In this document: piece by piece, positions 23,040 to 59,757 of the stretch
Layout of the letters: each line of letters starts with the position of its first letter
Position numbering within the stretch: position 1 is the stretch's first letter
Assembly: GCA_021292105.1 (NCBI GenBank)
Contig: CM037871.1
Span: 40,107,337 to 40,171,336, forward strand
Direction: 5' to 3'
Origin: Anadara kagoshimensis
Lineage: Eukaryota; Mollusca; Bivalvia; Arcoida; Arcidae
DNA: 64,000 nucleotides
Program-made: the position numbers and the translations under genes
The notes under the pieces: model-generated
Seen by the model: only the letters and a program-made list of their open reading frames with translations
What the model was told of the DNA's origin: nothing
Database searches by the model: none

Positions 23040-23240
23040 TTCTACAGTGGTCCAAGTCACACGCTTACAGATCCAAGCACCACTCACCGACAAGGTTCAA
23101 ATCCCACTCGGGAAAGGTCCTAGTGAGGAAGTTTGTGAGTTTGCTCTCCAGGCACTCAGGTTTCCACCGCCATCCATAAACTGACTCTCTTGATACAAGT
23201 GAAAGAATCTTGATTGGGGCCTAAGACTCCATTACTCCAC
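23040..23240 (+). mobile_element. tRNA-headed SINE, second family
   Basis: The head has TGGTCCAAGTCACACGC, an A-box remnant, and a clear B box, AAGGTTCAAATCCCAC. The body includes AGTGAGGAAGTTTGTGAG, the GGTTTCCACCGCCATCC block, and a tail with GATACAAGTGAAAGAATCTT. The 97-codon frame across it (22891-23184) is not a gene. Confidence 0.7.
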
Positions 23241-23629
23241 ACCTTGTTCCACATGTTATTTTAAACTGTTAATTCCGTCCATAGACATGTATTATTATAG
23301 AAAATGCTGCTGAACATTTGTTAAGTTTGTTAATGCATTTTGTTGTTTATAAAACACAAAATATTTTTGGTTGTGCCCGATTTGTATAGATATACTGTAT
23401 GTTATAATTATATATGTATTTTTTGTACTGAGTTTTTATGGTGATTCACCAAACAACTACTGGTTAAGATTATTGTTTGAAAATATATACATGTACAACA
23501 CTTATATTGCTATTCTGTGATAATGTTTGTGACAAAATAGTCACTTTTATGTCTCTCTGTCCAAGAATTATTATCCGAGAACATCCAATTAAAGCATATC
23601 ATATATCCTTTGACATCATTAGTATTGAC

Positions 23630-23860
23630 GTTGGTAACGGTTTCCAACAAACTCACTGGCTGAGCAGATCAAAGCGCCTCTCACTGCCTAGGTTCAATCT
23701 CTCCCCCCCCCCCCAGACAGATACTAATGTGAGAAGGTTTGTCATTTCACTTACCAGAGGTTGGCGATTTTCTCTGGCACTCTGGTTTCCTCTGCCATCC
23801 TAGAACTGACAGTGTCAATATAAGTGAAGAAATCTTGACTGAAGCAAAAAACTTAACACC
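23630..23860 (+). mobile_element. tRNA-headed SINE, second family, with a C run
   Basis: It has the B-box-like TAGGTTCAATCTC followed by a run of C residues (from about 23702), then AATGTGAGAAGGTTTGTC, TGGTTTCCTCTGCCATCC and TCAATATAAGTGAAG. It matches 23040-23240 block by block. Overlapping frames on both strands (23477-23960) are incidental. Confidence 0.7.
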
Positions 23861-25579: not shown

Positions 25580-25720
25580 TTTCCAAACCACAATCCCAAA
25601 AGCAAAGTAAAAACTGAAAACTGGCAACTTAAATTAAACATGTGAACCTCTACCATGGACCATAAAAGTGGGATCTGGTGCTCCGAAAGGGTAAGCACAT
25701 ACTGTCTAGCTAGCTACACC
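25580..25720 (+). repeat. 120-bp dispersed repeat, copy 1 of 3
   Basis: It shares ACAATCCCAAAAGCAAAG, TGAAAACTGGCA, ACATGTGAAC and GGTGCTCCGAAAGGGTAAGC with 27055-27182 and 61455-61577, all in the same orientation. Termini and origin are unknown. Confidence 0.65.
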
Positions 25721-26281: not shown

Positions 26282-29200
26282 TTAACTTTGATCATATACT
26301 ATTTCTTTTTCCTCCTCGATCACAATAACTTCCTTTTCAAAGTACATATCCGGTTTCGCCATGTGGTCTGGTGAATCTGGTGGTATTGTTGGCTTTAAGT
26401 TATACCCTCTATCAACTGGTTCTAACACAATAAATTTGAGTAAGTTTTTAAATACATCATCGTTAAATCCCTTTACTTCTCCGTTCTCGATAACGTCATA
26501 TAAGTTTGCTTCTGGAATTTGCCAGCAGATATTTTGAAATGGATTACTATCGTTACATTTCCACAGTTGTAGTGTATTAAGCTGGTAGGCATGGAAGGAG
26601 AAGGTTTTACCGTTCGTTAATATTGTCTGTGTTGTAAATGGGTAAGTTACGTCTATGTATGAATTAAATCCTGTAATAGAAGTTTTAAAAAAAATTACAA
26701 TTTATTCCATGTACATGGTGTCAAAAGAAAACAATGCATCACAAGTTATACTTATGCCCTCACAATAGCATGACAGAAATACTGGTATTTCACTCAAATA
26801 AACAAAAGGCAATAGCTCTGTCAAATCGGGTTCGCCAGTTACAAAACATGAATTCTAACAAGATATTACCATGATAAACACTTGTATTAAGTTTTATTAA
26901 ATTTTGCTGAGAAATTTCGTTTTTTGAGCGCTGACAAGGAAAGTGTAATATATGTATGTATGGGCCAAATCCAAACTTCATTTGCGAGGCAAAAAAAAAG
27001 GCACCAATGGCCATGTACAACATACCAAACAGAAATATACCTATTTAGTATTCATGATCAAATCACAATCCCAAAGCAAAGTAAAATCTTTGAAAACTGG
27101 CATATTCTATTAAAATGTGAACTTAATCATGGAAGTGAAGCAAGGTGCTCCGGAAGGGTAAGTACCTCCTGTCTAGCTGGTTACAATTTATCATATAAAT
27201 AAAATAAATAAACGCAAAAAAGCTTTAGTTTTAAAGTCAACTGGCAAAAACATTTTGTATTTATTTTATTTATAACTACAAATTAATGTCTTGTTGATGA
27301 GATGATTACCATGTAGTGGATCCAACTGGAGCTCAAGCCCATGATTCTTAAATCATATGTCTACTACTTTAACCACTCTGTTACATTATATAATGTAGTG
27401 GATCCAGCTGGAGCTCAAGCCCATGATTCTTAAATCATATGTCTACTACTTTAACCACTCTGTTACATTATATAATGTAGTGGATCCAACTGGAGCTCAA
27501 GCCCATGATTCTTAAATCATATGTCTACTACTTTAACCACTCTTGTTACATTATATAATGTAGTGGATCCAACTGGAGCTCAAGCCCATGATTCTTAAAT
27601 CATATGTCTACTACTTTAACCACTCTGTTACATTATATAATGTAGTGGATCCAGCTGGAGCTCAAGCCCATGATTCTTAAATCATATGTCTACTACTTTA
27701 ACCACTCTGTTACATTATATAATGTAGTGGATCCAACTGGAGCTCAAGCCCATGATTCTTAAATCATATGTCTACTACTTTAACCACTCTTGTTACATTA
27801 TATAATGTAGTGGATCCAGCTGGAGCTCAAGCCCATGATTCTTAAATCATATGTCTACTACTTTAACCACTCTGTTACATTATATAATGTAGTGGATCCA
27901 GCTGGAGCTCAAGCCCATGATTCTTAAATCATATGTCTACTACTTTAACCACTCTGTTACATTATATAATGTAGTGGATCCAGCTGGAGCTCAAGCCCAT
28001 GATTCTTAAATCATATGTCTACTACTTTAACCACTCTGTTACATTATATAATGTAGTGGATCCAGCTGGAGCTCAAGCCCATGATTCTTAAATCATATGT
28101 CTACTACTTTAACCACTCTTGTACATTATATAATGTAGTGGATCCAACTGGAGCTCAAGCCCATGATTCTTAAATCATATGTCTACTACTTTAACCACTC
28201 TGTTACATTATATAATGTAGTGGATCCAGCTGGAGCTCAAGCCCATGATTCTTAAATCATATGTCTACTACTTTAACCACTCTGTTACATTATATAATGT
28301 AGTGGATCCAACTGGAGCTCAAGCCATGATTCTTAAATCATATGTCTACTACTTTAACCACTCTGTTACATTATATAATGTAGTGGATCCAACTGGAGCT
28401 CAAGCCCATGATTCTTAAATCATATGTCTACTACTTTAACCACTCTGTTACATTATATAATGTAGTGGATCCAACTGGAGCTCAAGCCCATGATTCTTAA
28501 ATCATATGTCTACTACTTTAACCACTCTGTTACATTATATAATGTAGTGGATCCAACTGGAGCTCAAGCCCATGATTCTTAAATCATATGTCTACTACTT
28601 TAACCACTCTGTTACATTATATAATGTAGTGGATCCAGCTGGAGCTCAAGCCCATGATTCTTAAATCATATGTCTACTACTTTAACCACTCTGTTACATT
28701 ATATAATGTAGTGGATCCAACTGGAGCTCAAGCCCATGATTCTTAAATCATATGTCTACTACTTTAACCACTCTGTTACATTATATAATGTAGTGGATCC
28801 AACTGGAGCTCAAGCCCATGATTCTTAAATCATATGTCTACTACTTTAACCACTCTGTTACATTATATAATGTAGTGGATCCAACTGGAGCTCAAGCCCA
28901 TGATTCTTAAATCATATGTCTACTACTTTAACCACTCTGTTACATTATATAATGTAGTGGATCCAGCTGGAGCTCAAGCCCATGATTCTTAACTCATATG
29001 TCTACTACTTTAACCACTCTGTTACATTATATAATGTAGTGGATCCAACTGGAGCTCAAGCCCATGATTCTTAAATCATATGTCTACTACTTTAACCACT
29101 CTGTTACATTATATAATGTAGTGGATCCAACTTGAGCTCAAGCCCATGATTCTTAAATCATATGTCTACTACTTTAACCACTCTGTTACATTATATAATG

Positions 29201-32200
29201 TAGTGGATCCAACTTGAGCTCAAGCCCATGCTTCTTAAATCATATGTCTACTACTTTAACCACTCTGTTACATTATATAATGTAGTGGATCCAACTGGAG
29301 CTCAAGCCCATGATTCTTAAATCATATGTCTACTACTTTAACCACTCTGTTACATTATATAATGTAGTGGATCCAACTGGAGCTCAAGCCCATGATTCTT
29401 AAATCATATGTCTACTACTTTAACCACTCTGTTACATTATATAATGTAGTGGATCCAACTGGAGCTCAAGCCCATGATTCTTAAATCATATGTCTACTAC
29501 TTTAACCACTCTGTTACATTATATAATGTAGTGGATCCAGCTGGAGCTCAAGCCCATGATTCTTAAATCATATGTCTACTACTTTAACCACTCTGTTACA
29601 TTATATAATGTAGTGGATCCAACTGGAGCTCAAGCCCATGATTCTTAAATCATATGTCTACTACTTTAACCACTCTGTTACATTATATAATGTAGTGGAT
29701 CCAACTGGAGCTCAAGCCCATGATTCTTAAATCATATGTCTACTACTTTAACCACTCTGTTACATTATATAATGTAGTGGATCCAGCTGGAGCTCAAGCC
29801 CATGATTCTTAAATCATATGTCTACTACTTTAACCACTCTGTTACATTATATAATGTAGTGGATCCAACTGGAGCTCAAGCCCATGATTCTTAAATCATA
29901 TGTCTACTACTTTAACCACTCTGTTACATTATATAATGTAGTGGATCCAGCTGGAGCTCAAGCCCATGATTCTTAAATCATATGTCTACTACTTTAACCA
30001 CTCTGTTACATTATAAATGTAGTGGATCCAACTGGAGCTCAAGCCCATGATTCTTAAATCATATGTCTACTACTTTAACCACTCTGTTACATTATATAAT
30101 GTAGTGGATCCAACTGGAGCTCAAGCCCATGATTCTTAAATCATATGTCTACTACTTTAACCACTCTGTTACATTATATAATGTAGTGGATCCAACTGGA
30201 GCTCAAGCCCATGATTCTTAAATCATATGTCTACTACTTTAACCACTCTGTTACATTATATAATGTAGTGGATCCAGCTGGAGCTCAAGCCCATGATTCT
30301 TAAATCATATGTCTACTACTTTAACCACTCTGTTACATTATATAATGTAGTGGATCCAACTGGAGCTCAAGCCCATGATTCTTAAATCATATGTCTACTA
30401 CTTTAACCACTCTGTTACATTAATAATGTAGTGGATCCAGCTGGAGCTCAAGCCCATGATTCTTAAATCATATGTCTACTACTTTAACCACTCTGTTACA
30501 TTATATAATGTAGTGGATCCAGCTGGAGCTCAAGCCCATGATTCTTAAATCATATGTCTACTACTTTAACCACTCTGTTACATTATATAATGTAGTGGAT
30601 CCAACTGGAGCTCAAGCCCATGATTCTTAAATCATATGTCTACTACTTTAACCACTCTGTTACATTATATAATGTAGTGGATCCAGCTGGAGCTCAAGCC
30701 CATGATTCTTAAATCATATGTCTACTACTTTAACCACTCTGTTACATTTATAATGTAGTGGATCCAGCTGGAGCTCAAGCCCATGATTCTTAAATCATAT
30801 GTCTACTACTTTAACCACTCTGTTACATTATATAATGTAGTGGATCCAACTGGAGCTCAAGCCCATGATTCTTAAATCATATGTCTACTACTTTAACCAC
30901 TCTGTTACATTATATAATGTAGTGGATCCAGCTGGAGCTCAAGCCCATGATTCTTAAATCATATGTCTACTACTTTAACCACTCTGTTACATTATATAAT
31001 GTAGTGGATCCAACTGGAGCTCAAGCCCATGATTCTTAAATCATATGTCTACTACTTTAACCACTCTGTTACATTATATAATGTAGTGGATCCAACTGGA
31101 GCTCAAGCCCATGATTCTTAAATCATATGTCTACTACTTTAACCACTCTGTTACATTATATAATGTAGTGGATCCAACTGGAGCTCAAGCCCATGATTCT
31201 TAAATCATATGTCTACTACTTTAACCACTCTGTTACATTATTAATGTAGTGGATCCAACTGGAGCTCAAGCCCATGATTCTTAAATCATATGTCTACTAC
31301 TTTAACCACTCTGTTACATTATATAATGTAGTGGATCCAACTGGAGCTCAAGCCCATGATTCTTAAATCATATGTCTACTACTTTAACCACTCTGTTACA
31401 TTATATAATGTAGTGGATCCAACTGGAGCTCAAGCCCATGATTCTTAAATCATATGTCTACTACTTTAACCACTCTGTTACATTATATAATGTAGTGGAT
31501 CCAACTGGAGCTCAAGCCCATGATTCTTAAATCATTGTCTACTACTTTAACCACTCTGTTACATTATATAATGTAGTGGATCCAGCTGGAGCTCAAGCCC
31601 ATGATTCTTAAATCATATGTCTACTACTTTAACCACTCTGTTACATTATATAATGTAGTGGATCCAACTGGAGCTCAAGCCCATGATTCTTAAATCATAG
31701 TCTACTACTTTAACCACTCTGTTACATTATATAATGTAGTGGATCCAACTGGAGCTCAAGCCCATGATTCTTAAATCATATGTCTACTACTTTAACCACT
31801 CTGTTACATTATATAATGTAGTGGATCCAACTGGAGCTCAAGCCCATGATTCTTAAATCATATGTCTACTACTTTAACCACTCTGTTACATTATATAATG
31901 TAGTGGATCCAACTGGAGCTCAAGCCCATGATTCTTAAATCATATGTCTACTACTTTAACCACTCTGTTACATTATATAATGTAGTGGATCCAACTGGAG
32001 CTCAAGCCCATGATTCTTAAATCATATGTCTACTACTTTAACCACTCTGTTACATTATATAATGTAGTGGATCCAACTGGAGCTCAAGCCCATGATTCTT
32101 AAATCATATGTCTACTACTTTAACCACTCTGTTACATTATATAATGTAGTGGATCCAACTGGAGCTCAAGCCCATGATTCTTAAATCATATGTCTACTAC

Positions 32201-35200
32201 TTTAACCACTCTGTTACATTATATAATGTAGTGGATCCAACTGGAGCTCAAGCCCATGATTCTTAAATCATATGTCTACTACTTTAACCACTCTGTTACA
32301 TTATATAATGTAGTGGATCCAACTGGAGCTCAAGCCCATGATTCTTAAATCATATGTCTACTACTTTAACCACTCTGTTACATTATATAATGTAGTGGAT
32401 CCAACTGGAGCTCAAGCCCATGATTCTTAAATCATATGTCTACTACTTTAACCACTCTGTTACATTATATAATGTAGTGGATCCAGCTGGAGCTCAAGCC
32501 CATGATTCTTAAATCATATGTCTACTACTTTAACCACTCTGTTACATTATATAATGTAGTGGATCCAGCTGGAGCTCAAGCCCATGATTCTTAAATCATA
32601 TGTCTACTACTTTAACCACTCTGTTACATTATATAATGTAGTGGATCCAACTGGAGCTCAAGCCCATGATTCTTAAATCATATGTCTACTACTTTAACCA
32701 CTCTGTTACATTATATAATGTAGTGGATCCAACTGGAGCTCAAGCCCATGATTCTTAAATCATATGTCTACTACTTTAACCACTCTGTTGCATTATATAA
32801 TGTAGTGGATCCAACTGGAGCTCAAGCCCATGATTCTTAAATCATATGTCTACTACTTTAACCACTCTGTTACATTATATAATGTAGTGGATCCAACTGG
32901 AGCTCAAGCCCATGATTCTTAAATCATATGTCTACTACTTTAACCACTCTGTTACATTATATAATGTAGTGGATCCAACTGGAGCTCAAGCCCATGATTC
33001 TTAAATCATATGTCTACTACTTTAACCACTCTGTTACATTATATAATGTAGTGGATCCAACTGGAGCTCAAGCCCATGATTCTTAAATCATATGTCTACT
33101 ACTTTAACCACTCTGTTACATTATATAATGTAGTGGATCCAACTGGAGCTCAAGCCCATGATTCTTAAATCATATGTCTACTACTTTAACCACTCTGTTA
33201 CATTATATAATGTAGTGGATCCAACTGGAGCTCAAGCCCATGATTCTTAAATCATATGTCTACTACTTTAACCACTCTGTTACATTATATAATGTAGTGG
33301 ATCCAACTGGAGCTCAAGCCCATGATTCTTAAATCATATGTCTACTACTTTAACCACTCTGTTACATTATATAATGTAGTGGATCCAACTGGAGCTCAAG
33401 CCCATGATTCTTAAATCATATGTCTACTACTTTAACCACTCTGTTACATTATATAATGTAGTGGATCCAACTGGAGCTCAAGCCCATGATTCTTAAATCA
33501 TATGTCTACTACTTTAACCACTCTGTTACATTATATAATGTAGTGGATCCAGCTGGAGCTCAAGCCCATGATTCTTAAATCATATGTCTACTACTTTAAC
33601 CACTCTGTTACATTATATAATGTAGTGGATCCAACTGGAGCTCAAGCCCATGATTCTTAAATCATATGTCTACTACTTTAACCACTCTGTTACATTATAT
33701 AATGTAGTGGATCCAACTGGAGCTCAAGCCCATGATTCTTAAATCATATGTCTACTACTTTAACCACTCTGTTACATTATATAATGTAGTGGATCCAACT
33801 GGAGCTCAAGCCCATGATTCTTAAATCATATGTCTACTACTTTAACCACTCTGTTACATTATTAATGTAGTGGATCCAGCTGGAGCTCAAGCCCATGATT
33901 CTTAAATCATATGTCTACTACTTTAACCACTCTGTTACATTATATAATGTAGTGGATCCAACTGGAGCTCAAGCCCATGATTCTTAAATCATATGTCTAC
34001 TACTTTAACCACTCTGTTACATTATATAATGTAGTGGATCCAACTGGAGCTCAAGCCCATGATTCTTAAATCATATGTCTACTACTTTAACCACTCTGTT
34101 ACATTATATAATGTAGTGGATCCAACTGGAGCTCAAGCCCATGATTCTTAAATCATATGTCTACTACTTTAACCACTCTGTTACATTATATAATGTAGTG
34201 GATCCAGCTGGAGCTCAAGCCCATGATTCTTAAATCATATGTCTACTACTTTAACCACTCTGTTACATTATATAATGTAGTGGATCCAACTGGAGCTCAA
34301 GCCCATGATTCTTAAATCATATGTCTACTACTTTAACCACTCTGTTACATTATATAATGTAGTGGATCCAACTGGAGCTCAAGCCCATGATTCTTAAATC
34401 ATATGTCTACTACTTTAACCACTCTGTTACATTATATAATGTAGTGGATCCAACTGGAGCTCAAGCCCATGATTCTTAAATCATATGTCTACTACTTTAA
34501 CCACTCTGTTACATTATATAATGTAGTGGATCCAACTGGAGCTCAAGCCCATGATTCTTAAATCATATGTCTACTACTTTAACCACTCTGTTACATTATA
34601 TAATGTAGTGGATCCAACTGGAGCTCAAGCCCATGATTCTTAAATCATATGTCTACTACTTTAACCACTCTGTTACATTATATAATGTAGTGGATCCAAC
34701 TGGAGCTCAAGCCCATGATTCTTAAATCATATGTCTACTACTTTAACCACTCTGTTACATTATATAATGTAGTGGATCCAGCTGGAGCTCAAGCCCATGA
34801 TTCTTAAATCATATGTCTACTACTTTAACCACTCTGTTACATTATATAATGTAGTGGATCCAACTGGAGCTCAAGCCCATGATTCTTAAATCATATGTCT
34901 ACTACTTTAACCACTCTGTTACATTATATAATGTAGTGGATCCAACTGGAGCTCAAGCCCATGATTCTTAAATCATATGTCTACTACTTTAACCACTCTG
35001 TTACATTATATAATGTAGTGGATCCAACTGGAGCTCAAGCCCATGATTCTTAAATCATATGTCTACTACTTTAACCACTCTGTTACATTATATAATGTAG
35101 TGGATCCAACTGGAGCTCAAGCCCATGATTCTTAAATCATATGTCTACTACTTTAACCACTCTGTTACATTATATAATGTAGTGGATCCAACTGGAGCTC

Positions 35201-38200
35201 AAGCCCATGATTCTTAAATCATATGTCTACTACTTTAACCACTCTGTTACATTATATAATGTAGTGGATCCAGCTGGAGCTCAAGCCCATGATTCTTAAA
35301 TCATATGTCTACTACTTTAACCACTCTGTTACATTATATAATGTAGTGGATCCAACTGGAGCTCAAGCCCATGATTCTTAAATCATATGTCTACTACTTT
35401 AACCACTCTGTTACATTATATAATGTAGTGGATCCAACTGGAGCTCAAGCCCATGATTCTTAAATCATATGTCTACTACTTTAACCACTCTGTTACATTA
35501 TATAATGTAGTGGATCCAACTGGAGCTCAAGCCCATGATTCTTAAATCATATGTCTACTACTTTAACCACTCTGTTACATTATATAATGTAGTGGATCCA
35601 ACTGGAGCTCAAGCCCATGATTCTTAAATCATATGTCTACTACTTTAACCACTCTGTTACATTATATAATGTAGTGGATCCAACTGGAGCTCAAGCCCAT
35701 GATTCTTAAATCATAGTCTACTACTTTAACCACTCTGTTACATTATATAATGTAGTGATCCAACTGGAGCTCAAGCCCATGATTCTTAAATCATATGTCT
35801 ACTACTTTAACCACTCTGTTACATTATATAATGTAGTGGATCCAACTGGAGCTCAAGCCCATGATTCTTAAATCATATGTCTACTACTTTAACCACTCTG
35901 TTACATTATATAATGTAGTGGATCCAACTGGAGCTCAAGCCCATGATTCTTAAATCATATGTCTACTACTTTAACCACTCTGTTACATTATATAATGTAG
36001 TGGATCCAACTGGAGCTCAAGCCCATGATTCTTAAATCATATGTCTACTACTTTAACCACTCTGTTACATTATATAATGTAGTGGATCCAACTGGAGCTC
36101 AAGCCCATGATTCTTAAATCATATGTCTACTACTTTAACCACTCTGTTACATTATATAATGTAGTGGATCCAACTGGAGCTCAAGCCCATGATTCTTAAA
36201 TCATAGTCTACTACTTTAACCACTCTGTTACATTATATAATGTAGTGGATCCAACTGGAGCTCAAGCCCATGATTCTTAAATCATATGTCTACTACTTTA
36301 ACCACTCTGTTACATTATATAATGTAGTGGATCCAACTGGAGCTCAAGCCCATGATTCTTAAATCATATGTCTACTACTTTAACCACTCTGTTACATTAT
36401 ATAATGTAGTGGATCCAACTGGAGCTCAAGCCCATGATTCTTAAATCATATGTCTACTACTTTAACCACTCTGTTACATTATATAATGTAGTGGATCCAG
36501 CTGGAGCTCAAGCCCATGATTCTTAAATCATATGTCTACTACTTTAACCACTCTGTTACATATATAATGTAGTGGATCCAGCTGGAGCTCAAGCCCATGA
36601 TTCTTAAATCATATGTCTACTACTTTAACCACTCTGTTACATTATATAATGTAGTGGATCCAGCTGGAGCTCAAGCCCATGATTCTTAAATCATATGTCT
36701 ACTACTTTAACCACTCTGTTACATTATATAATGTAGTGGATCCAACTGGAGCTCAAGCCCATGATTCTTAAATCATATGTCTACTACTTTAACCACTCTG
36801 TTGCATTATATAATGTAGTGGATCCAACTGGAGCTCAAGCCCATGATTCTTAAATCATATGTCTACTACTTTAACCACTCTGTTACATTATATAATGTAG
36901 TGGATCCAACTGGAGCTCAAGCCCATGATTCTTAAATCATATGTCTACTACTTTAACCACTCTGTTACATTATATAATGTAGTGGATCCAACTGGAGCTC
37001 AAGCCATGATTCTTAAATCATATGTCTACTACTTTAACCACTCTGTTACATTATATAATGTAGTGGATCCAACTGGAGCTCAAGCCCATGATTCTTAAAT
37101 CATATGTCTACTACTTTAACCACTCTGTTACATTATAATGTAGTGGATCCAACTGGAGCTCAAGCCCATGATTCTTAAATCATATGTCTACTACTTTAAC
37201 CACTCTGTTACATTATATAATGTAGTGGATCCAACTGGAGCTCAAGCCCATGATTCTTAAATCATATGTCTACTACTTTAACCACTCTGTTACATTATAT
37301 AATGTAGTGGATCCAACTGGAGCTCAAGCCCATGATTCTTAAATCATATGTCTACTACTTTAACCACTCTGTTACATTATATAATGTAGTGGATCCAGCT
37401 GGAGCTCAAGCCCATGATTCTTAAATCATATGTCTACTACTTTAACCACTCTGTTACATTATATAATGTAGTGGATCCAACTGGAGCTCAAGCCCATGAT
37501 TCTTAAATCATATGTCTACTACTTTAACCACTCTGTTACATTATATAATGTAGTGGATCCACTGGAGCTCAAGCCCATGATTCTTAAATCATATGTCTAC
37601 TACTTTAACCACTCTGTTACATTATATAATGTAGTGGATCCAACTGGAGCTCAAGCCCATGATTCTTAAATCATATGTCTACTACTTTAACCACTCTGTT
37701 ACATTATATAATGTAGTGGATCCAACTGGAGCTCAAGCCCATGATTCTTAAATCATATGTCTACTACTTTAACCACTCTGTTACATTATATAATGTAGTG
37801 GATCCAACTGGAGCTCAAGCCCATGATTCTTAAATCATATGTCTACTACTTTAACCACTCTGTTACATTATATAATGTAGTGGATCCAGCTGGAGCTCAA
37901 GCCCATGATTCTTAAATCTATGTCTACTACTTTAACCACTCTGTTACATTATATAATGTAGTGGATCCAACTGGAGCTCAAGCCCATGATTCTTAAATCA
38001 TATGTCTACTACTTTAACCACTCTGTTACATTATATAATGTAGTGGATCCAACTGGAGCTCAAGCCCATGATTCTTAAATCATATGTCTACTACTTTAAC
38101 CACTCTGTTACATTATATAATGTAGTGGATCCAACTGGAGCTCAAGCCCATGATTCTTAAATCATATGTCTACTACTTTAACCACTCTGTTACATTATAT

Positions 38201-41200
38201 AATGTAGTGGATCCAGCTGGAGCTCAAGCCCATGATTCTTAAATCATATGTCTACTACTTTAACCACTCTGTTACATTATATGTAGTGGATCCAGCTGGA
38301 GCTCAAGCCCATGATTCTTAAATCATATGTCTACTACTTTAACCACTCTGTTACATTATATAATGTAGTGGATCCAACTGGAGCTCAAGCCCATGATTCT
38401 TAAATCATATGTCTACTACTTTAACCACTCTGTTACATTATATAATGTAGTGGATCCAACTGGAGCTCAAGCCCATGATTCTTAAATCATAGGTCTACTA
38501 CTTTAACCACTCTGTTACATTATATAATGTAGTGGATCCAACTGGAGCTCAAGCCCATGATTCTTAAATCATATGTCTACTACTTTAACCACTCTGTACA
38601 TTATATAATGTAGTGGATCCAACTGGAGCTCAAGCCCATGATTCTTAAATCATATGTCTACTACTTTAACCACTCTGTTACATTATATAATGTAGTGGAT
38701 CCAGCTGGAGCTCAAGCCCATGATTCTTAAATCATATGTCTACTACTTTAACCACTCTGTTACATTATATAATGTAGTGGATCCAGCTGGAGCTCAAGCC
38801 CATGATTCTTAAATCATATGTCTACTACTTTAACCACTCTGTTACATTATATAATGTAGTGGATCCAGCTGGAGCTCAAGCCCATGATTCTTAAATCATA
38901 TGTCTACTACTTTAACCACTCTGTTACATTATATAATGTAGTGGATCCAACTGGAGCTCAAGCCCATGATTCTTAAATCATATGTCTACTACTTTAACCA
39001 CTCTGTTACATTATAATGTAGTGGATCCAACTGGAGCTCAAGCCCATGATTCTTAAATCATATGTCTACTACTTTAACCACTCTGTTACATTATATAATG
39101 TAGTGGATCCAACTGGAGCTCAAGCCCATGATTCTTAAATCATATGTCTACTACTTTAACCACTCTGTTACATTATATAATGTAGTGGATCCAACTGGAG
39201 CTCAAGCCCATGATTCTTAAATCATATGTCTACTACTTTAACCACTCTGTTACATTATATAATGTAGTGGATCCAACTGGAGCTCAAGCCCATGATTCTT
39301 AAATCATGTCTACTACTTTAACCACTCTGTTACATTATATAATGTAGTGGATCCAGCTGGAGCTCAAGCCCATGATTCTTAAATCATATGTCTACTACTT
39401 TAACCACTCTGTTACATTATATAATGTAGTGGATCCAGCTGGAGCTCAAGCCCATGATTCTTAAATCATATGTCTACTACTTTAACCACTCTGTTACATT
39501 ATATAATGTAGTGGATCCAGCTGGAGCTCAAGCCCATGATTCTTAAATCATATGTCTACTACTTTAACCACTCTGTTACATTATATAATGTAGTGGATCC
39601 AACTGGAGCTCAAGCCCATGATTCTTAAATCATATGTCTACTACTTTAACCACTCTGTTACATTATATAATGTAGTGGATCCAACTGGAGCTCAAGCCCA
39701 TGATTCTTAAATCATATGTCTACTACTTTAACCACTCTGTTACATTATATAATGTAGTGGATCCAACTGGAGCTCAAGCCCATGATTCTTAAATCATATG
39801 TCTACTACTTTAACCACTCTGTTACATTATATAATGTAGTGGATCCAACTGGAGCTCAAGCCCATGATTCTTAAATCATATGTCTACTACTTTAACCACT
39901 CTGTTACATTATATAATGTAGTGGATCCAGCTGGAGCTCAAGCCCATGATTCTTAAATCATATGTCTACTACTTTAACCACTCTGTTACATTATATAATG
40001 TAGTGGATCCAACTGGAGCTCAAGCCCATGATTCTTAAATCATATGTCTACTACTTTAACCACTCTGTTACATTATATAATGTAGTGGATCCAACTGGAG
40101 CTCAAGCCCATGATTCTTAAACATATGTCTACTACTTTAACCACTCTTGTTACATTATATAATGTAGTTATCCAACTGGAGCTCAAGCCCATGATTCTTA
40201 AATCATATGTCTACTACTTTAACCACTCTGTTACATTATATAATGTAGTGGATCCAGCTGGAGCTCAAGCCCATGATTCTTAAATCATATGTCTACTACT
40301 TTAACCACTCTGTTACATTATATAATGTAGTGGATCCAGCTGGAGCTCAAGCCCATGATTCTTAAATCATGTCTACTACTTTAACCACTCTGTTACATTA
40401 TATAATGTAGTGGATCCAGCTGGAGCTCAAGCCCATGATTCTTAAATCATATGTCTACTACTTTAACCACTCTGTTACATTATATAAAACTATCAAGGTT
40501 ACACATTTTTATTACACTCTTAATATGGAGAAATCTTAGAAAATGAGGGATACATATATGAAACATATTTATAAGTTGAATAAATAAATATGCTGTAAGC
40601 CTTGACAAATGGCAATATATCAATTACTCATGTAATATATTATTACCTTGGGTATATGCCTGTGCTACAGTCCACAGAAAAGAAGCACCAAGTCCATATC
40701 CCATCCTGTATAATTGTCCATGCTTCTCTCCAACTTCTCTTTCATAATGTTCTGACTTATTATTATATGGATTGATGACAGAAAATGTACCATATTCCCA
40801 GGGATCACCAAGGTTATAACCTATATAACAGATTCATTGTCAAAATCATGTTAGTTTTATGGAAGTTCCACTGATTTCATTAGTATGGAGAGAAAATAAC
40901 AAATTTTATTTATTTAATAAATGGAATAAATATCACCCACACACTTTTAAAATGGACTTCTGCTATTACTACAATATTTGCAAAATGGAAATACAATTTT
41001 TAACAATTTGACATCTACTGGCACCCTTTTAACCCCAGCATCTGTCATTAAACTATTTTGTGGCATATTGGTAAAGCTGTAACTTGTTGAAATATTGGTA
41101 CTTTAAAATTTATAGCTACTCTGTCCGTTCATCTATACTTATCAGTCCAATGCTGGTGACATCTGGATATCAGTGAAATATTCTTGACTGGGACGTAAAA

Positions 41201-44200
41201 CCTCTATACTAATCAGTCCAATGCTGGGGACAAGTTTGTCCTAGTTTCAGTGGCATGAAGTGAGGAGTATACAACCGTCATGAAAGAAAAATTCTGAATT
41301 TTGTATAAATTTTTCTAACACCAATGTTTGGGACAATTTTGTCCCATGTCTACCAGTTTTAGTGGTGTAAAGTGATAAAATTACAACCCTTATAAAATTC
41401 TGAATTTTGTCTAAATATTTCTAAAAATCTGAATTTTTCTAACACCAATGTTGGGGACAAGTTTGTCCCAGTTTTAGTGGTGTAAAGTGATAAATTTGCA
41501 ACCCTTATAAAACAAAGATTCAGAATTTTGTTTTAATATTTCTGAAAATACTAATCATTCTTAATTTTTCTTACACTAAAAAGTTTGTGTCTGAATTTTT
41601 TCTGAAACACTTTTATCTGTATTCTGAATTTAGTCTGACAATACTGAATTGATTATGGAAACAAACAAATTCAATGTAGGCTGACATTCCGACAAAATTT
41701 AGAGAGACACCTGTAATTCAGAACTTTTTCAGACAACTATTTTCATAAGAGAAGTCTCTTGAGAGAATGTGATGCTAGCCCATTACAATAGTATAGTATA
41801 CTTGCCAACTTTAGAGTCCAGTTTCTTCCAGCCAATGACTGTCCCATTTCACACGGATAACAATCAGGACTTTTGGTCTCGTAGCTTCCTGTAGAGAGCG
41901 AGTCTGTACGAGGGATGAACTGTCAAATACAATATATATTAATAGTGTTATCAAATCTTCTATATAACAATAATAAATATATTTAGATGTTTTTTGGGGT
42001 TTATAATTCCTCTAAACATGTATGAAACGGTTTAAAAACTGTTTCATGACAGAACAAACTGAATGCACAAAAAATTGCTGTTTTTGGTCTCTTGTAATCA
42101 TTCTGTTAATCCTGACCATACCAGACAACAGTGTAAACAATGACTTTGTGAATGGGACCCAATATTGACCCCTGATGTTATAGCATTAATAAATAGTAAA
42201 AAATAATTTTCAGTTTGCACTATAGGAGTCTTTGAACTTTTAAAGTGCTGTCATATACACAGCATACTTTAAATAGAACGTACTAAACTGGTACTACTAA
42301 TTCAGATACAAATAACCTCAGAAATTAACACTACTCTGTCTGTAGGTGAGATTTAAGTATGTAACAACATGATAAATCTGACAATATAATAATTTTAATT
42401 TATATAGACTTTCCTGTTTAATCATAAAGCTGAACATTAGACTTTGAAATTTTGCCAAATGAGTAATGATATTTTTTGATAAAACTGATGAAATCATAAT
42501 TAACACTATTAGGGTAGTACAGTAAACCTGTCTATAAAGGCTACCAGAGGAACTAGTGAAAGTTACCTTTATAGGCAGGTGACCTTTATATACAGGTTCA
42601 ATAATATCAATAAAGAACAATTGGGATACAACTCTAGTGGGCTTTATAAGCAGGTGGACCTTATATAGAGGTAGCCTTTAAGGCAGGTTGGACTGTAATG
42701 TTTAACATCCCATCAGCATATTTTCAGCTATAAAGGCATGATCAAGTTTATTAATCTCCAGAGATTAATCTAAGATCATGTTGTTGTATGTGTAATAGTG
42801 TTTTATGGTCAAGCCTATTTACTAGCATGCTCTCATTCACATTATATACTAAAACAGTTGAATGAGTTGATACTTTCATAGACACTGACTCTACCACCAA
42901 GTCACTGAGGAGATATACATAATTATTTCATATCAGTTTTGTAACATTTACAGGGTCATCCAATGGTACAAACCAACTGCTGTGTATGGACCAAGTGGGC
43001 AATACACAACCTGTCCTTTGACAGAGCAGGCAATATACAGAACTATGTCCCTTTAACATTTTTGTACGGCGTTTCACAATAGTGAATGCGTACTTTGCTA
43101 TCGCTTCCTGCCAAGATCAGGCTTCTTTTCTATGAGATTAGTACGCAATAGTGCGCCTGGTAAATGAACGTGAAGGAAATGTATCTGTTTTATCGTGAGA
43201 TATGTATTCTGAAACGGTTAATGCATTTTGTTACATATGCACATTTGGAATAAATTTCCGGAATATATTTCGGAATCTAGTAAAATATTGCGACGGCATG
43301 CTTCCAAAACTTTGTGCAAACTGGCGAACTGATCTCATAAATACAATAAAAAGTAGTCCGGGAAGTTTGCATCCTACCATGTAAAATCATAACTTTTTAT
43401 GAAATAAACAGCAATGACGGGTGGATTTAACTAATTCTTTATGAAATCTACTTTAATTTGAATTTATTTTAAAGGGTATAATAAAGTATTTTGGTGTTGC
43501 GGTACTCTGCTACATTTTAAAACTTATTTATCGATTACATTTGACTTCCGTGAAAGGGAGATAAACTGTACAATGCAATGTGCAAACATTCAGAAGTAAT
43601 GAAACAGGAATATTGTGAATGATAATCAGCAGTTTTTTAAAAACCAGACTTATACAGCAAATTATCCAGTTACATAAAATGCTAGAATGAACCTCCTAAA
43701 GCAGCGGTCGGGTTTGCAAAAACTCTACTTTCTCTTTATCCAAAATGACAAACAACGATCAATCCTGAAGGTACAATTGATAAAACTTTATTTAATTTTA
43801 ATTACTGAACGTCTTTTTCATATATTGATGGAATTATTATTTTTTGTCGTTTTTTACTGAGCAATACATGGTTTGGTACATTTTTTCTTTTCAAAAACAC
43901 TATCCGTCTAACTATGCATCGATGCCGGGGAGATTTTCGGTTATATTCAGTCCTACTCCAGCACCATTCTCCCAGCTACGCCGTACAGCAGCACAGCAGT
44001 GCTATGTTTTAAACATTTGAGCTTATTAGATTAATGAATTAGATATTATCAGGTATTTGGGTATTGAACAGTTCTGCATCTAATATGATAAAATCACTTT
44101 ACTTTCACAGATAATGAATACAACATCAATATTCAATACAGTAAATTACTGTTAAATCATTTTGTTAATTCTCATATTCTTGGAGAGAAATTTTACCTCT

Positions 44201-45041
44201 GGTAACATCTTCTCTGATCTATACTGAAAATCTGCTGTTATATGGCCTATGAATTCAGCACTTTCTTCAAATCCAGTCATCCGAAATTTGCGCATCTTAA
44301 TGTCTTTACGAGATTCCTGTAGCTTATATGTTTTTATGACAGGAACTGTATCTGGGGCATATTCATACAATTCTTTGATTCTTCTTGGTCTAGGGCGTTT
44401 TGTCTGATATCTATCCCAGAATGCCTGAACTATGACATTTTCACTAAGGCATCCTGTTCCCAAGTGTTCATAACTATGAGCAAGAAGTGTAGTAAAATTT
44501 ATAAGCATATTTCTGATAGTATAATTAGAAAGTTGTCTAACATTTTCTTTATCACGCTGAGCAAAGTCATTCTCTAATAACAATGTGTCTATAATAACAG
44601 GTTTTAAAAAGGAAACTTCATCATCAACATTTATTTCATCATAAATTTCTGGAAGTGAATCCTCTATAAGTAAAGTTTTAGTCTTGTCCTGTTGATATTC
44701 AAACGTTCTTGGAGCTAAATTGTCACCTGGGTTGAAAAACCATATTTTTCTGCCATGTTCTCCTTTACTTCTGAAGTAGTCAAGGCGGTCCTGAACTGTT
44801 GGAATTGCAAGTAAATTCTCCATTTCCTTATATCTTCTCCATGTTGTTTTCCTGGGCAAGTCCCCCCAATCACCTGGTGGATATATCGGTTTGACGGGGG
44901 TACACAGCGTCCGTGTCAGCTTCTTGAAGAGAAGATTGTGTACTAAGACATCTTTTCGTATTGTAGCATAGTCTTACAATTTGTTTCTTTGTTGCACATC
45001 TAATAGACTCATTTTCAAAGTTTTTTTACTGCAAAATTCAT
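26282..45041 (-). CDS. MRPS30: Mitochondrial ribosomal protein mL65 (MRPS30)
   Basis: Four exons on the minus strand: 44197-45041, 41802-41919, 40647-40820 and 26282-26670. Splice phases fit throughout. The product belongs to the large mitoribosomal subunit, despite the old S30 name. The C-terminal half follows the recalled human protein: KMLPEF...DCYPC, then GASFLWTVAQAYTQGF, PFTTQTILTNGKTFSFHAYQ, LNTLQLW, NICW, and VKGFNDDVFKNLLKF. The start chosen at 45041-45039 gives a basic, Arg/Ser-containing, acid-poor N-terminus (IVRLCYNTKRCLSTQSS) that fits a mitochondrial import signal. Two one-base excesses break the frame in exon 1: a 7-T run at 45021-45027 and a 5-G run at 44896-44900 (plus strand). 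Removing one base from each restores a frame of 507 codons plus stop, longer than the roughly 440 of human. The last intron (26671-40646) is 14 kb because of the 82-bp satellite. The gene is head to head with GALK2. Confidence 0.88.
27055..27182 (+). repeat. 120-bp dispersed repeat, copy 2 of 3
   Basis: It carries the same blocks as 25580-25720 (ACAATCCCAAAGCAAAG, TTTGAAAACTGGCA, GGTGCTCCGGAAGGGTAAG, CTGTCTAGCTGG). It lies in the last MRPS30 intron, about 130 bp before the satellite array. Confidence 0.65.
27311..40486 (-). repeat. 82-bp tRNA-like satellite, about 160 tandem copies
   Basis: A tandem array of 13.2 kb fills most of the last MRPS30 intron. The unit is 82 bp (landmarks on the plus strand: ATGTAGTGGATCCA, GAGCTCAAGCCC, ATGATTCTTAAATCAT, TTACATTATATA). 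Units are nearly identical. The main variant is A or G in GGATCCA(A/G)CTGG, which creates or removes a PvuII site; rarer changes are one-base indels, CTCTTGTTAC in place of CTCTGTTAC, and a few substitutions. On the minus strand, the MRPS30 sense strand, each unit resembles a Leu/Ser-type tRNA. It has a Pol III A box, TAACAGAGTGG (10 of 11 to TRGCNNAGYGG), an anticodon-arm-like hairpin ATGAT-TTAAGA-ATCAT, a B-box-like GGCTTGAGCTCC, and ends TAATGTA/TACATTA that would pair as a seven-base acceptor stem. The junction between units is the palindrome ACATTATATAATGT, and the array also begins and ends within it. No run of four T exists in the unit on either strand. No coding frame of 60 codons occurs. 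The tRNA origin is inferred. Confidence 0.95.
41215..41520 (+). repeat. Diverged tandem repeat, about three units of 120-130 bp
   Basis: Three copies of a block starting CCAATG(C/T)T(G)GGGACAA and continuing with TTTTAGTGGTGTAAAGTGAT and ACAACCCTTATAAAA lie in tandem within the intron between MRPS30 exons 2 and 3. The copies are diverged, so the array is old. Confidence 0.65.
42518..42697 (+). mobile_element. Family C MITE, 180 bp, complete
   Basis: It runs from TACAGTAAACCTGTC to CAGGTTGGACTGTA. The ends are inverted repeats, and two internal pairs of TAAAGGC / GCCTTTA type sites follow. TA at both ends suggests a TA target duplication. It lies in MRPS30 intron 1. A 100-codon minus frame over it (42318-42620) is incidental. 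Confidence 0.8.
42698..44196. other. MRPS30: MRPS30 intron 1, remaining part
   Basis: Nothing beyond AT-rich unique-looking DNA is seen. A plus-strand frame at 43202-43384 has no splice context or recognisable motif. The intron donor at 44196/44195 (GTAAAA on the minus strand) and its acceptor before 41919 bound it. Confidence 0.5.
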
Positions 45042-45369: not shown

Positions 45370-48300
45370 ATGGTGGATGTACCGCCGGTCAGAAAAATTC
45401 CAGAAAACAAAACTGAACGGTGAATATCTTTGTATCATTGAATTGATAAAGATCAGACACAGAAAATGATAGTTTTTATTAAGTTTTCTGATCATATTTA
45501 CCGATAAAAAAACTCAAACTCCAAGTGTGAGTGACCATTACACGTTTTACTAAGATTTCTTTTCCAAAACTTGTCAACTAGACAGTAGAATCTATTAAAC
45601 TTAAAACATGTTAAAGGATGTTCCTTGGCTAGAGATCTATCTGGATTAAATGCCAAAAGTTTTTTATTTCTTTTTGTCATGGTTGGAAGGATCATTGAAG
45701 CTTGAAACAGAGTGCCAACCCTATTTCGTGTAATTGTGGGTGCATGGACCAGAGTTGCCAACTGACCCGCAACCTGCGGGTTTGACCCAGATTTAGAAAT
45801 TAATTCCCGCTGACCCGCCAAAAAGGGGACTGACCCGCAAATTACCATAGGGCTTGAGGATTTGCAAGGTTCAGTCATTACCACTTAAATCCATCTGCAA
45901 TCGCATCGAATTAGAGTGATTTACATGGACGGGCTAAGGGTTATAGAGGATTAATTTTGTACCCGGGATGCCGCAAATGAAAAATCACTACGTGCATTAT
46001 ACTGTATCCATTTCTCAAAGACACCACATGAGAATGCACCATATCTTTTTATCTAATTTTCAATTCTTTTGGAAGGAATGCACCTAGACACGGCCGGATT
46101 TCGGTCGGACCAACAATTACACAAAATAGGGTTGGCAGCTCTGGCATCCCTACCAAAAGAATTGAAAATAAGATAAAAAAATATGGTGCATTTTCATGTG
46201 ATTTCTTAAAGAAATGGATAAAGTATAATGCATGTAGTGATTTCACACCTACTCCTGGGCACAAAATTAATCCACTACACCCTTAGTTCATCCATGTAAA
46301 CACTCTAATTTGCAGCAATTACAGATGTATTTGAGTGGTATTGAATGAACATTGCAAATCCTCAAACTATTATGGTCATTTGTGGGTCAGTCCCCTTCTT
46401 GGCGGGTCAGCAGGAATTCATGTCAAAATGATGGTTGGACCCGTGGGTTGTGGGTCAGTAAATATGGCAGCTCTGTTGAAACGGCATGCATATAATTAAA
46501 TGTAGTCTAGCTGATTATAGCATTAGTTGATATTAGTTTGGTTTGATGTGGTTTATATTGCTCAGTTTGTTTCAATTGCTTTTAATTGTAAGCATCCTCT
46601 GTAACAGCGACAAGTGGCTTTATATTTAAGAACATTACAGAGGTGACTTTAGCATGCACTGAGAAACGATCCCTCAGTTTTGAAACTAGTCCAAAAGACT
46701 AAGAAGTAACAAGCTTTAACAGTACTAGTATGGGCAGGAGGTGAAAATCATCTCAGAAAATTTCCAAGTTTCGATGAAGGTTCGAACTCCCAACCCTTGA
46801 CTTCGAAAGCCAATGACCTTGTTTACCCATACTCAGCCATGTATGTCCAGTTCAGTTTACACACATTTTAGTTTACTCAGGTTTGGTTTCACAGGTTTCC
46901 TTTGTATATCAAACTCAAAAATTTATTGCTCTGTATAGTAAATTAAAATATAAACATAAGTTATTCCTGTATTAATAGATTTGAAAAAATCCAACAATGT
47001 TTTGTTCAAAAGTATGGACGACAGCCAAAATTTTTTGCAAGAGCATCTGGTCGGGTCAATCTATAGGTGAGTATGTTTTTTTTTCTTGAATTAGAAAAAA
47101 GGTTCTATTGACTTATTTCCGTCTCTCCGTGAGGAGAATCGGGCCATTAAAGGTTCTATTTGTTAAATCCAATTTGTGAAGGGCCTTGATGGCCAAATGG
47201 TCTAAACTCTAAAGCTACATGTAGCTTATGGATCACAGTGCCTAGGATCATTTCCCACATGTGATAACTGAACACAAGGCAGGTCAATACAAGCTTAAAA
47301 GCTTACATTTGATCAGGTTCCAGTAAGTTATAAAAAGAACTAAATGAAATTATGTCATATAGAGACAATTCTGGTTTGATTGTCTTAATAAGTTACCGTA
47401 ATTTGGGTTCAAGATAAATTTTATGCCTATATACCCCATTATTTAAAGTATTATAAGATTTGCATTAATTAAATTTTGTAGGTGAACACATAGATTACTG
47501 TGGTTATGCAGTATTACCAATGGCGATTGAGCAAGATGTTGTGTCAGCTGTATCGACCAATGATTCCAACAGATTAGTTATTGCTAACACTGACAGCAAG
47601 TACAAGTATGTGTTTCATTTATATCCTGTAAACTGCTGGCTATTTTCTGTCTTTTATCCACAATAACTTGTTTTACTTGGTCGGGCCTCTGTGGCCAATT
47701 GGTGTGCTTACAAATCACAGCAAATCTGACTGTCAAGGTTTGAATCCAACTCAGGACAGTTCAGTTCCCTCCACCATTCATGAACAATCACCATCACAAT
47801 GTAGAAAACCTGCACCAAATGTGAATGGACCATTTTTGGGCTAAAGTGGATGTCTTGGTCATGTTGGTTGTCAATAACTTTTTCCATTCTGTTAAAATTT
47901 TTCAGTATCAAACAATTTATAATTAGGAATAAAGATATTGCAAGGCAAAAAATTCTGTCACTTCACTTGGTGGACAATTTTAGATGATGACATTCCATAA
48001 CAATTGACAGTTTTATTACGTTTATTTCTATTTATTTCAGAGATTTTGAATGTGATATAAGTAACTTTGAGATTAACAAATCAGATCCTCAATGGTATAA
48101 CTACTTTTTATGTGGATTGAAAGGCATGCTTGAAGACATGAAATTGGATAAAGTAAAAGGACTAACTTGTATGGTAGATGGTACTGTTCCACCTAGTGCT
48201 GGACTGTCTAGTTCAAGTGCACTTGTATGTTGTTCAGCATTGTTAACGATGCATGCCAATGGTCACTCATTGTCAAAGGTAATATTTCTAACAGTACTTT

Positions 48301-57272: not shown

Positions 57273-57354
57273 TGTATATATCCACCTGCTGCTATGAAAT
57301 GCAAGTAGACAATCATTCATGGCGAGACAGAACTGAGTTTCACATAAACTGCTG

Positions 57355-57548
57355 AAGGTATAGGTCAGTCAGTCCTGGGATGGTGGAGGAAACAGTAGTA
57401 CCCCTGGAAAACCACCAAGCTACAGCAAGCAAACTGACATACTTTCTCACATTGGGATCTGTCCGGAGTGGGATTTGAACCTAGGCAGTTAGAGGTGCTG
57501 TGATTCCATAAATGTGTGCTTTGGATCACTCAGCCACCTAAACCCCTG
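57355..57548 (-). mobile_element. tRNA-headed SINE, second family, minus orientation, intact head
   Basis: On the minus strand: GGTGGCTGAGTGATCCAAAG (A box of Leu/Ser type), B box TAGGTTCAAATCCCACTCC, then AATGTGAGAAAGTATGTCAG and GGTGGTTTTCCAGGGGTAC, ending at TTTCCTCCACCATCCCAGG. It is the best preserved head of this family in the window. Confidence 0.75.
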
Positions 57549-57574
57549 GTCATTATTGATATTGTAAACATATT

Positions 57575-58779: not shown

Positions 58780-59418
58780 CTGTAAAAAGAAAAGTAAATT
58801 GTTTTATTAAGATACATGTATATACATGTACATTCTGTTTAAAGTCTGAAAACAGGTTGTAGAATGGTTCAGATGGTAAAGGGGGTACTTTAACTATATT
58901 ACTAGACATTTTAACTACCATGACCATTTAAGGTCAGTAGTTATATTTAAAACAGTTTGTGGTCACTACTAGTATATGTGTTTATCTTGGAGCAATGTTT
59001 AATTTATTGTCATATCCTTATATTGTAAAAAATAATCATTTACCAGGAATCATAAAAATAAACCAATGCCTTTTTTAGACAAGTTAAGAGATTTTTACAA
59101 TCAACTTTCAAACTGTGTTGAACTCCACAAATTCTGAAAAAAACTCTCTTCACATGGTTAAGTTATTACAATATACATTGATCTATTAGCTATAGGTCCT
59201 TCTGACATCTCAGATCCTAAAAACAACAAAGGCAATTCATAAAAAAATAATTCTTTTCATTGCCATTAAATAATAAGTTTATTGCAAAGGTATATTGTTC
59301 TACAGCTTCACCAAAGCTGGTGACATCTCAATTTAAGTGTGAAATTGTTGAAAGGGAGGTATATTAAGCCTAATTGCACTCTAACACTAACAGTCATACT
59401 AAAAGGATGGATACCACT

Positions 59419-59757
59419 AGGGTAGCTCAATTTGTAGAGTGCTCGCTCCGTAAGTGGGAGGTCGTGGGTTCAAGTCCCAACCAGGTCTGACCCAAGACTT
59501 GAAAATGGGTAGTGACTGTTCTTTCACCAAGCACTTGGCATTACAAAATGAAAGTCATGGTTCTTTCGGATGGGAACTTGAAATAAACAAGGTCCCGTGT
59601 CATGGTAAGCTTGGCACGATAAAGAACCCTGCTGTATAATGCCATCAGCGCAATGCACAGGCAAAATTTCTGCATCTTTGCCTATAGCTGGTGATTTCTC
59701 AATATAAGTGAAATATTCTTGACTGGGACATTAAACGCCATTACTCAACTCAACTCA
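59419..59757 (+). mobile_element. tRNA-headed SINE, family A, full length
   Basis: It is the most complete copy: A box GTAGCTCAATTTGTAGAG, B box GTGGGTTCAAGTCCCAACC, body TCTGACCCAAGACTTGAAAA through AGGTCCCGTGTCATGG and GATAAAGAACCCTGCTGTAT, and tail GCTGGTGATTTCTCAATATA, TTCTTGACTGGGACATTAAA, ending in ACTCAACTCAACTC repeats. The 61-codon frame inside it (59454-59639) is not a gene. Confidence 0.85.

Follow-up and report, generated by a model that had tools for sequence, protein, structure and literature searches.

A 13-kb satellite of tRNA-like 82-bp units in the last intron of a bivalve MRPS30-like gene

Here, we find that the last intron of an MRPS30-like gene of Anadara kagoshimensis holds a homogeneous array of 161 head-to-tail 82-bp units, and that the unit bears a real resemblance to a tRNA, confirmed on the sense strand of the gene and best in a class I register, which points to derivation from a tRNA. 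We consider it probable that the array descends from a single tRNA-derived seed of class I, nearest to tRNA-Lys and either a SINE head or a tRNA pseudogene, which was amplified and homogenised. The window, i.e. the whole stretch of DNA that was analysed, covers 64,000 nucleotides (positions 40,107,337 to 40,171,336 of contig CM037871.1, assembly GCA_021292105.1); its relevant features are collected in Table 1.

Table 1. Coordinates of the array, its unit and the host gene (positions within the window)
Feature	Position	Strand	Basis or remark
Tandem array of 161 head-to-tail 82-bp units, tRNA-like on the sense strand of the host gene	27311..40487	minus	TRF and 161 anchors
Example unit, sense register TATATAATG...CCACTACAT	27311..27392	minus	
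Class I tRNA register (tRNA positions 1-73) in the example unit	27318..27390	minus	similarity confined to about 8-70
A box TAACAGAGTGG	27373..27383	minus	A+B matrix
B box/T-arm GGCTTGAGCTCC	27328..27339	minus	begins 44 nt after A-box start; T-stem 4/5 pairs
Hairpin ATGATTTAAGAATCAT, proposed anticodon arm	27341..27356	minus	about 8 nt off the anticodon position
Junction palindrome TACATTATATAATGTA at a two-unit boundary, containing the arms of the proposed 'acceptor stem'	27382..27397	.	149 perfect copies in the array
Array-bearing last intron (MRPS30-like gene), about 14.0 kb with an array share of about 94%	26671..40646	minus	GT/AG ends by eye
MRPS30/PDCD9 coding exon directly upstream of the array intron	40647..40820	minus	ends by eye
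Last coding exon of MRPS30/PDCD9	26282..26670	minus	start by eye
Open frame with 5' coding exon of MRPS30/PDCD9	44152..44973	minus	PDCD9 53-220, E 3.5e-9

The array was delimited by TRF with a period of 82, 161.0 copies and 98% matches, and cutting at a fixed 19-base word yielded 161 anchors, in good agreement with the original prediction of about 160 tandem units. Anchor cutting drops one unit, so that 160 of the 161 were compared: 128 take either of two forms that are a single T/C apart, while 32 carry other small changes. The variant AGCTGG is enriched towards the ends of the array, with 29 of its 43 occurrences in the outer 80 of the 160 units (permutation p 0.006), and ACAAG replaces ACAG in four units (0-based positions 3, 150, 154 and 157 of 160), in three of them via an inserted A; no clear higher-order period appeared at unit shifts of 1-40. 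The strings on which the tRNA idea was built are all present in the array, where the sense (minus) strand has 161 copies each of GAGTGGTTAA and TTAAGA and 159 of GGCTTGAGCTCC; elsewhere in the window, GAGTGGTTAA is absent from both strands. A 16-bp palindrome, TACATTATATAATGTA, spans the unit boundaries. A 25-base word of the unit had no exact matches in viral and prokaryote contigs, as expected of a eukaryotic sequence, and a tRNA-Leu pattern had none in viral contigs.

The gene that hosts the array is MRPS30/PDCD9, encoded on the minus strand; its open frames match PDCD9 53-220, 301-365 and 363-449. The array sits between the last two of these frames, which, together with readable GT (40646) and AG (26671) intron ends, bears out its placement in the last MRPS30 intron. 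The downstream frame (26282-26701) matches PDCD9 363-449 with an E value of 3.3e-31, and the upstream one (40624-40833) matches 301-365 with E 1.8e-4 and 21.2 bits, short of the curated threshold of 25. The share of the intron taken up by the array was computed with intron ends a few bases off.

Is the unit a tRNA in origin? An ungapped profile of seven 73-nt class I tRNAs found one register on the sense strand, with a score of 0.476 that was reached in none of 5000 shuffles (mean 0.342, sd 0.016, maximum 0.411) and at only 3 of 101,500 other sites in the window, each of which is the head of a dispersed SINE. Among the 26 tRNAs used for comparison, the closest is tRNA-Lys, identical at 35 of 56 bases over tRNA positions 8-63. 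Ten of the 21 differences from tRNA-Lys are C>T or G>A, a share that fits the expectation of decay. Among the 82 possible offsets, Lys, Lys(UUU), Arg, Phe and Met fit best at a common one, and the seven-tRNA set was picked once this shared offset was known; runs without Lys, with single tRNAs and with all 12 class I tRNAs served as a guard. Indeed, no shuffle out of 2000 equalled the profile without Lys or the profile of all 12, and single-tRNA profiles supported the match for Arg (0/2000), Phe (1/2000) and Met (5/2000); Tyr (528/2000) and Val (90/2000, at a different offset) gave no support. The tRNA likeness claimed for the sense strand is thereby upheld: the unit has collinear tRNA similarity above that of shuffles, which is the mark of a tRNA-derived repeat.

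Gapped local alignment to 18 tRNAs gave a similar picture. No dinucleotide shuffle out of 3000 reached the score of the unit in three of four scoring schemes, and with plain shuffles 0, 2 and 2 of 3000 did so in these three; a separate alignment run gave 1 of 2000. In one stringent scheme, 283 of 3000 shuffles scored as high. Real 82-mers of the window exceed the shuffle rate, with 14 of 1556 unmasked ones attaining the alignment score and the best lying near tRNA-like repeats, and 7-8 of 3000 natural 82-mers still do so after masking of the SINE, tandem and array tracts, which were listed by hand. The A and B boxes were found where they had been placed, at the canonical spacing of 44 nt, and form the best pair in the unit; their joint score was attained by 22 of 3000 shuffles and by 32 of 2093 window tiles.

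The secondary structure tells of decay. In the class I register, 3/7 acceptor, 2/4 D-stem, 4/5 anticodon-stem and 4/5 T-stem pairs are formed, i.e. 6 of the 11 acceptor and D pairs are broken. Two of the arms named in the original prediction fall outside this register and had to be abandoned: the initial two bases of the A box also belong to the supposed acceptor stem TAATGTA/TACATTA, whose 3' arm lies about 10 nt outside the register, and the TTAAGA hairpin read as an anticodon arm lies about 8 nt 3' of the true place, which is occupied by CATATGA. The Rfam tRNA model RF00005 failed to match the unit at any E value up to 10, and ARAGORN called it only at thresholds of 70% or less, at which 698 of 3000 shuffles were also called; its tRNA-Ile(TAT) call at lowered thresholds was rejected on this ground. 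A functional nuclear tRNA gene is likewise rejected, since Rfam and ARAGORN miss the unit and the cloverleaf pairs are broken. The fold of the sense strand is ordinary (z -0.88, with 41 of 200 shuffles equally good). Thus, the proposed comparison of tRNA models with shuffles came out divided: Rfam and ARAGORN did not raise the unit above shuffles, while the in-register sequence tests did.

This division bears directly on an alternative, namely that the array is an AT-rich satellite of anonymous intron sequence whose resemblance to a tRNA arose by chance. The failure of the structure-aware tests (Rfam, ARAGORN and the sense fold) is what such a satellite would show, and the hypothesis was framed post hoc to the sequence, the first profile set being picked after the offset had been seen. 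We nevertheless hold a chance likeness to be unlikely, as the class I profile is unmatched by shuffles, finds its equals elsewhere in the window only in the three SINE heads, and survives both the removal of Lys and the inclusion of all 12 class I tRNAs.

Within the tRNA reading, we prefer class I over class II, with a mixed history possible. The class II (Leu/Ser) idea came from the 82-nt length and from GAGTGGTTAA, and it is disfavoured: an ungapped class II profile was weak, with 64 of 2000 shuffles as high, and in the gapped local alignment Leu(UAA) came second with 32 against 35 for Lys, so that the proposed tRNA-Leu(UAA) identity gives way to tRNA-Lys. Our own covariance models leaned the other way, scoring the unit at 14.4 bits for class II and 9.5 bits for class I with the T-arm unaligned. 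Over the window, the best units attained 14.2-16.1 bits (E 0.016-0.059) with the class II model and 9.5-10.8 bits (E 0.32-0.94) with the class I model, and for each model both alignments inspected left the T-arm unaligned. The class II alignments shown use the junction palindrome as acceptor stem. With this model the array units rank second in the window, behind a SINE head at 57460 (19.9 bits); under the class I model they are outscored by eight sites outside the array, mostly SINE heads or fragments.

How could such a seed have become an array? We propose that it was already present in, or inserted into, the last MRPS30 intron in the same orientation as the gene, that a head-to-tail duplication took in some 9 additional bp, and that unequal exchange or replication slippage, the latter perhaps aided by the junction palindrome, expanded it to 161 copies, with homogenisation strongest in the middle of the array. 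The outward bias of the AGCTGG variant and the positions of the four ACAAG units support such growth. The array would be spliced out with the intron and most likely does nothing for the host.

Could the array instead be active? Its canonically spaced A and B boxes might recruit Pol III, and a unit devoid of TTTT might allow sense readthrough across several units. The 44-nt spacing is consistent with this, as is the absence of TTTT from both strands of the consensus unit and its junction, the first TTTT lying 60 nt past the array; moreover, the longest variant-free stretch of the unit (20 nt; uniform model, P 0.02) includes the A-box core. However, the B box departs from Lys at T54 and C56, which are known as invariant tRNA bases, we estimate that 82 bases free of TTTT are common by chance, and deletion hot spots account for much of the variant clustering. 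Judged from these motifs, Pol III activity seems unlikely. Less likely still is a live Pol III locus, in which 161 promoter cores would recruit TFIIIC or Pol III and either affect the transcription or splicing of MRPS30 or yield long tRNA-like repeat RNAs; if it were true, selection would explain an A-box core unchanged in all 161 copies.

For the single tRNA-derived seed that we favour, we looked for a parent among the SINEs of the window. Its two SINE families showed no likeness to the unit beyond chance (170 of 1000 shuffles as good for consensus A, 491 of 1000 for consensus B), and among 12 tRNA-like sites and two consensus heads the best comparison, on the antisense strand of one site, was equalled by 37 of 1000 shuffles. 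The tail of the unit shares 7-8 of 24 bases with SINE-A tails, and nhmmer gave a weak match at 52637-52476 (E 0.16) that extends into a SINE head. Searched with BLAST, the intron flanks had no match to one copy of family A or two of family B, though the parent could belong to another family, and neither a SINE body nor a target-site duplication was found at the array.

The borders of the array also bear on whether a mobile element, of Helitron/HINE or pearl type, carried the array into the intron as its central repeat. Bivalves offer a precedent in the HINEs of C. gigas, reported to contain satellite-like repeats (PMC7492417), but the oyster clusters described there mostly have units of 140-180 bp and at most 29 monomers. 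Comparison of the 300-bp flanks gave neither inverted nor direct repeats better than shuffles (52 and 47 of 300, respectively, were as good), and the longest word common to the 25-bp array edges is 4 bases; such an origin is highly improbable. A retrozyme-like tandem derived from circular RNA is barely conceivable: the short intronic units are indeed arranged head-to-tail, but neither a hammerhead nor any other ribozyme family matched the units searched.

In summary, the array is a clear example of a satellite that probably arose from a seed of tRNA origin and whose unit consists for the most part of a single decayed tRNA; it is present in high copy number, homogeneous and located in the intron of a housekeeping gene. 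Standard tRNA finders can overlook such units, and a simple in-register profile compared with shuffles detects them. Precedents for satellites derived from tRNAs or SINEs have been published, and the array is a fresh, clean example rather than a new kind. The sSats of squamates are described as short tandem units (67 nt in snakes) formed from the tRNA-derived head and the body of a SINE, with more than 1200 monomers at one locus and greater homogeneity in longer arrays; a minor form in geckos corresponds to the tRNA portion (PMC10702118). Most sSats are reported to retain a longer terminal unit running into the parent SINE and to prefer subtelomeric positions (PMC10702118). They resemble the present array in being tRNA-related short tandem units of high copy number, whereas neither of its edges yielded a SINE remainder and it lies in a gene intron. 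Satellite 1 of Xenopus laevis and Hy/Pol III of Hydromantes are described as satellites that stem from the part of SINE-like elements related to tRNA (PMC9659126). These are amphibian satellites; in the present unit the tRNA register covers 73 of 82 bp. In the limpet Patella caerulea, PcH-sat, with a 179-bp unit mainly from the 3' part of a Nin-SINE, is reported as pericentromeric, devoid of A and B boxes and making up about 10% of the genome (PMC11121367); it is likewise molluscan and of SINE origin, but differs from the present array in the absence of these boxes and in its longer unit. Alongside its counterparts in reptiles, amphibians and the limpet, the array fits a picture in which tRNA and SINE sequences have repeatedly seeded satellites.

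The core of the 82-bp unit whose tandem array fills most of the last intron of MRPS30 (PDCD9) is most likely tRNA-derived. When a profile of 73-nt class I tRNAs was slid ungapped over the tandem unit, with dinucleotide shuffles on both strands and in all registers as the null, one register stood far above the others (0.476 versus a null of 0.342, sd 0.016, maximum 0.411; 0 of 5000 shuffles). Elsewhere in the window, counting both strands, three of 101,500 sites reach this score, and all three are heads of a dispersed tRNA-derived SINE. The same best offset was obtained for Lys, Lys(UUU), Arg, Phe and Met, each alone, and none of 2000 shuffles reached the unit's score with a profile lacking Lys or with a profile built from all 12 class I tRNAs. 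The class II (Leu/Ser) profile was weak (64/2000), and Tyr alone (528/2000) and Val alone (90/2000) gave the match no support. Gapped local alignment ranked tRNA-Lys first (57 columns, one gap) and Leu(UAA) next, with a score reached by 0 of 3000 dinucleotide shuffles in three scoring schemes and by 283 of 3000 in a stringent one; among real 82-mers of the window it was reached by 7-8 of 3000 after masking and by 14 of 1556 unmasked. An A+B box matrix placed the unit's best pair at exactly canonical spacing, at a score reached by 22/3000 shuffles and 32/2093 window tiles. Read in register, the sequence speaks for a tRNA-like unit.

At tRNA positions 8-63 the unit is identical to tRNA-Lys in 35 of 56; C>T or G>A changes account for 10 of the 21 mismatches. 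Retained pairs number 3/7 in the acceptor stem, 2/4 in the D-stem, and 4/5 in both the anticodon stem and the T-stem; CATATGA forms the loop where the anticodon would lie. Based on this anatomy, the A and B boxes of the original prediction were right, and its acceptor stem and Leu(UAA)-like loop were misplaced: the former is part of the 16-bp palindrome across unit junctions, with one side overlapping the A box and the other outside the register, and the latter lies in a different hairpin, roughly 8 nt 3' of the anticodon arm.

Is the unit recognised by finders for genuine tRNAs? It is not. ARAGORN found no tRNA genes in the window. It called the unit only once its threshold had been lowered to 70% or less, a setting at which it also accepted 698 of 3000 shuffled units. 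The Rfam tRNA model returned nothing on the array up to E 10, a 115-base search included. Two covariance models were made from hand-entered tRNAs and run window-wide. Under the class I model the top-scoring units reached 9.5-10.8 bits (window-wide E 0.32-0.94), under the class II model 14.2-16.1 bits (E 0.016-0.059), and the T-arm was skipped in the two alignments shown for each. Eight non-array sites outscored the array in the class I search, in which another of the window's arrays, with a 145-bp unit, scored 7.9 bits. The sense-strand fold of the unit is ordinary (z -0.88, equalled by 41/200 shuffles); the antisense-strand fold is somewhat better than shuffles (z -2.21, 2/200).

Positions of features in the window
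Feature	Position (strand)	Remark
PDCD9/MRPS30 frame (PF07147)	44152-44973 (minus)	profile 53-220
PDCD9/MRPS30 frame (PF07147)	40624-40833 (minus)	profile 301-365; 21.2 bits, under curated 25
PDCD9/MRPS30 frame (PF07147)	26282-26701 (minus)	profile 363-449
82-bp array	27311-40487	161.0 copies, 98% matches (Tandem Repeats Finder)
GHMP-kinase domain frame	47991-48341 (+)	
First SINE family, tRNA-derived, dispersed	59416-59754 (+), 52210-52547 (-), 11831-12074 (-), 5944-6162 (-), 54379-54608 (+), 54909-55156 (+)	
Second SINE-like family	57282-57561 (-), 23046-23294 (+), 23650-23841 (+), 47706-47762 (+), 17489-17545 (-), 8435-8570 (-)	more diverged
145-bp-unit arrays	15259-16311, 53195-53691	Tandem Repeats Finder
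Adjacent minisatellites	2788-4368, 4538-5480	33-bp and 34-bp units; sequences differ (Tandem Repeats Finder)
MIR9746 match	60507-60627 (+)	53.9 bits, E 3.3e-8; family's gathering score 79
Dispersed repeat	27053-27185, 25584-25718, 61452-61567	copies ~76% alike

The PDCD9 frames, together with splice ends read by eye (CAAG/GTAATA at 40647/40646 and TTACAG/GATTT at 26671/26670) whose joining would keep the frame, place the array in the last, 14.0-kb intron, of which it therefore occupies ~94%, its tRNA-like strand in the sense direction of MRPS30. Near this gene lies a GHMP-kinase frame, presumably galactokinase-like.

Cutting at a fixed 19-base word gave 161 anchors and 160 units between them, of which 94 are identical, a further 34 have AGTTGG changed to AGCTGG as their sole difference, and the remaining 32 show minor changes of other kinds. 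A single base is missing from 17 of the 160, for some of which sequencing error is possible. No clear higher-order period was found over shifts of 1-40 units. The 43 units of the AGCTGG form are concentrated towards the array ends: 29 of them fall among the outer 80 (permutation p 0.006). ACAAG replaces ACAG in four units (0-based positions 3, 150, 154 and 157). Such end-enriched placement is the pattern expected from unequal exchange in a growing array and, with the junction palindromes, suggests growth by unequal exchange or slippage.

The seed may have been the head of a SINE, or it may have been a tRNA pseudogene. The array flanks do not match copies of the two window SINE families, the edges show neither target-site duplication nor flank repeat, and neither family is close kin to the unit. 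Copies of the first family share a body and, where complete, a ACTCAACTCAAC-type tail; its pieces are ~78-87% identical to the 52210-52560 copy, and the copy at 59421 is above the Rfam tRNA threshold. Two copies of the second carry GGTTCAAATCCCACTC as their B box; in the copy at 57.5 kb the A and B boxes stand further apart. Elsewhere, the two 145-bp-unit arrays look by eye like one AAGGTCAAGGTCA-type repeat in opposite orientations, the MIR9746 match is possibly a hairpin-forming repeat, and one copy of the dispersed repeat sits 125 bp off the array edge.

Most likely, the array has no function. Pol III activity is a less likely possibility: the box spacing is correct, TTTT is absent from the consensus unit, and the A-box core lies inside the longest variant-free run (20 nt; a crude uniform model gives P 0.02). 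However, the B box deviates at two bases, which we take to be invariant positions.

Among the open-licence papers listed by searches on terms other than MRPS30 and the unit length, we saw neither an 82-bp satellite resembling tRNA-Lys nor a tRNA-Lys-like satellite in an MRPS30 intron. Satellites derived from tRNAs or SINEs are already known, and we rate the array as a further example. They are described for squamates (PMC10702118), a table in PMC9659126 lists cases from Xenopus and Hydromantes, and there is one from a limpet (PMC11121367), whose satellite, unlike the MRPS30 unit, has no A and B boxes.
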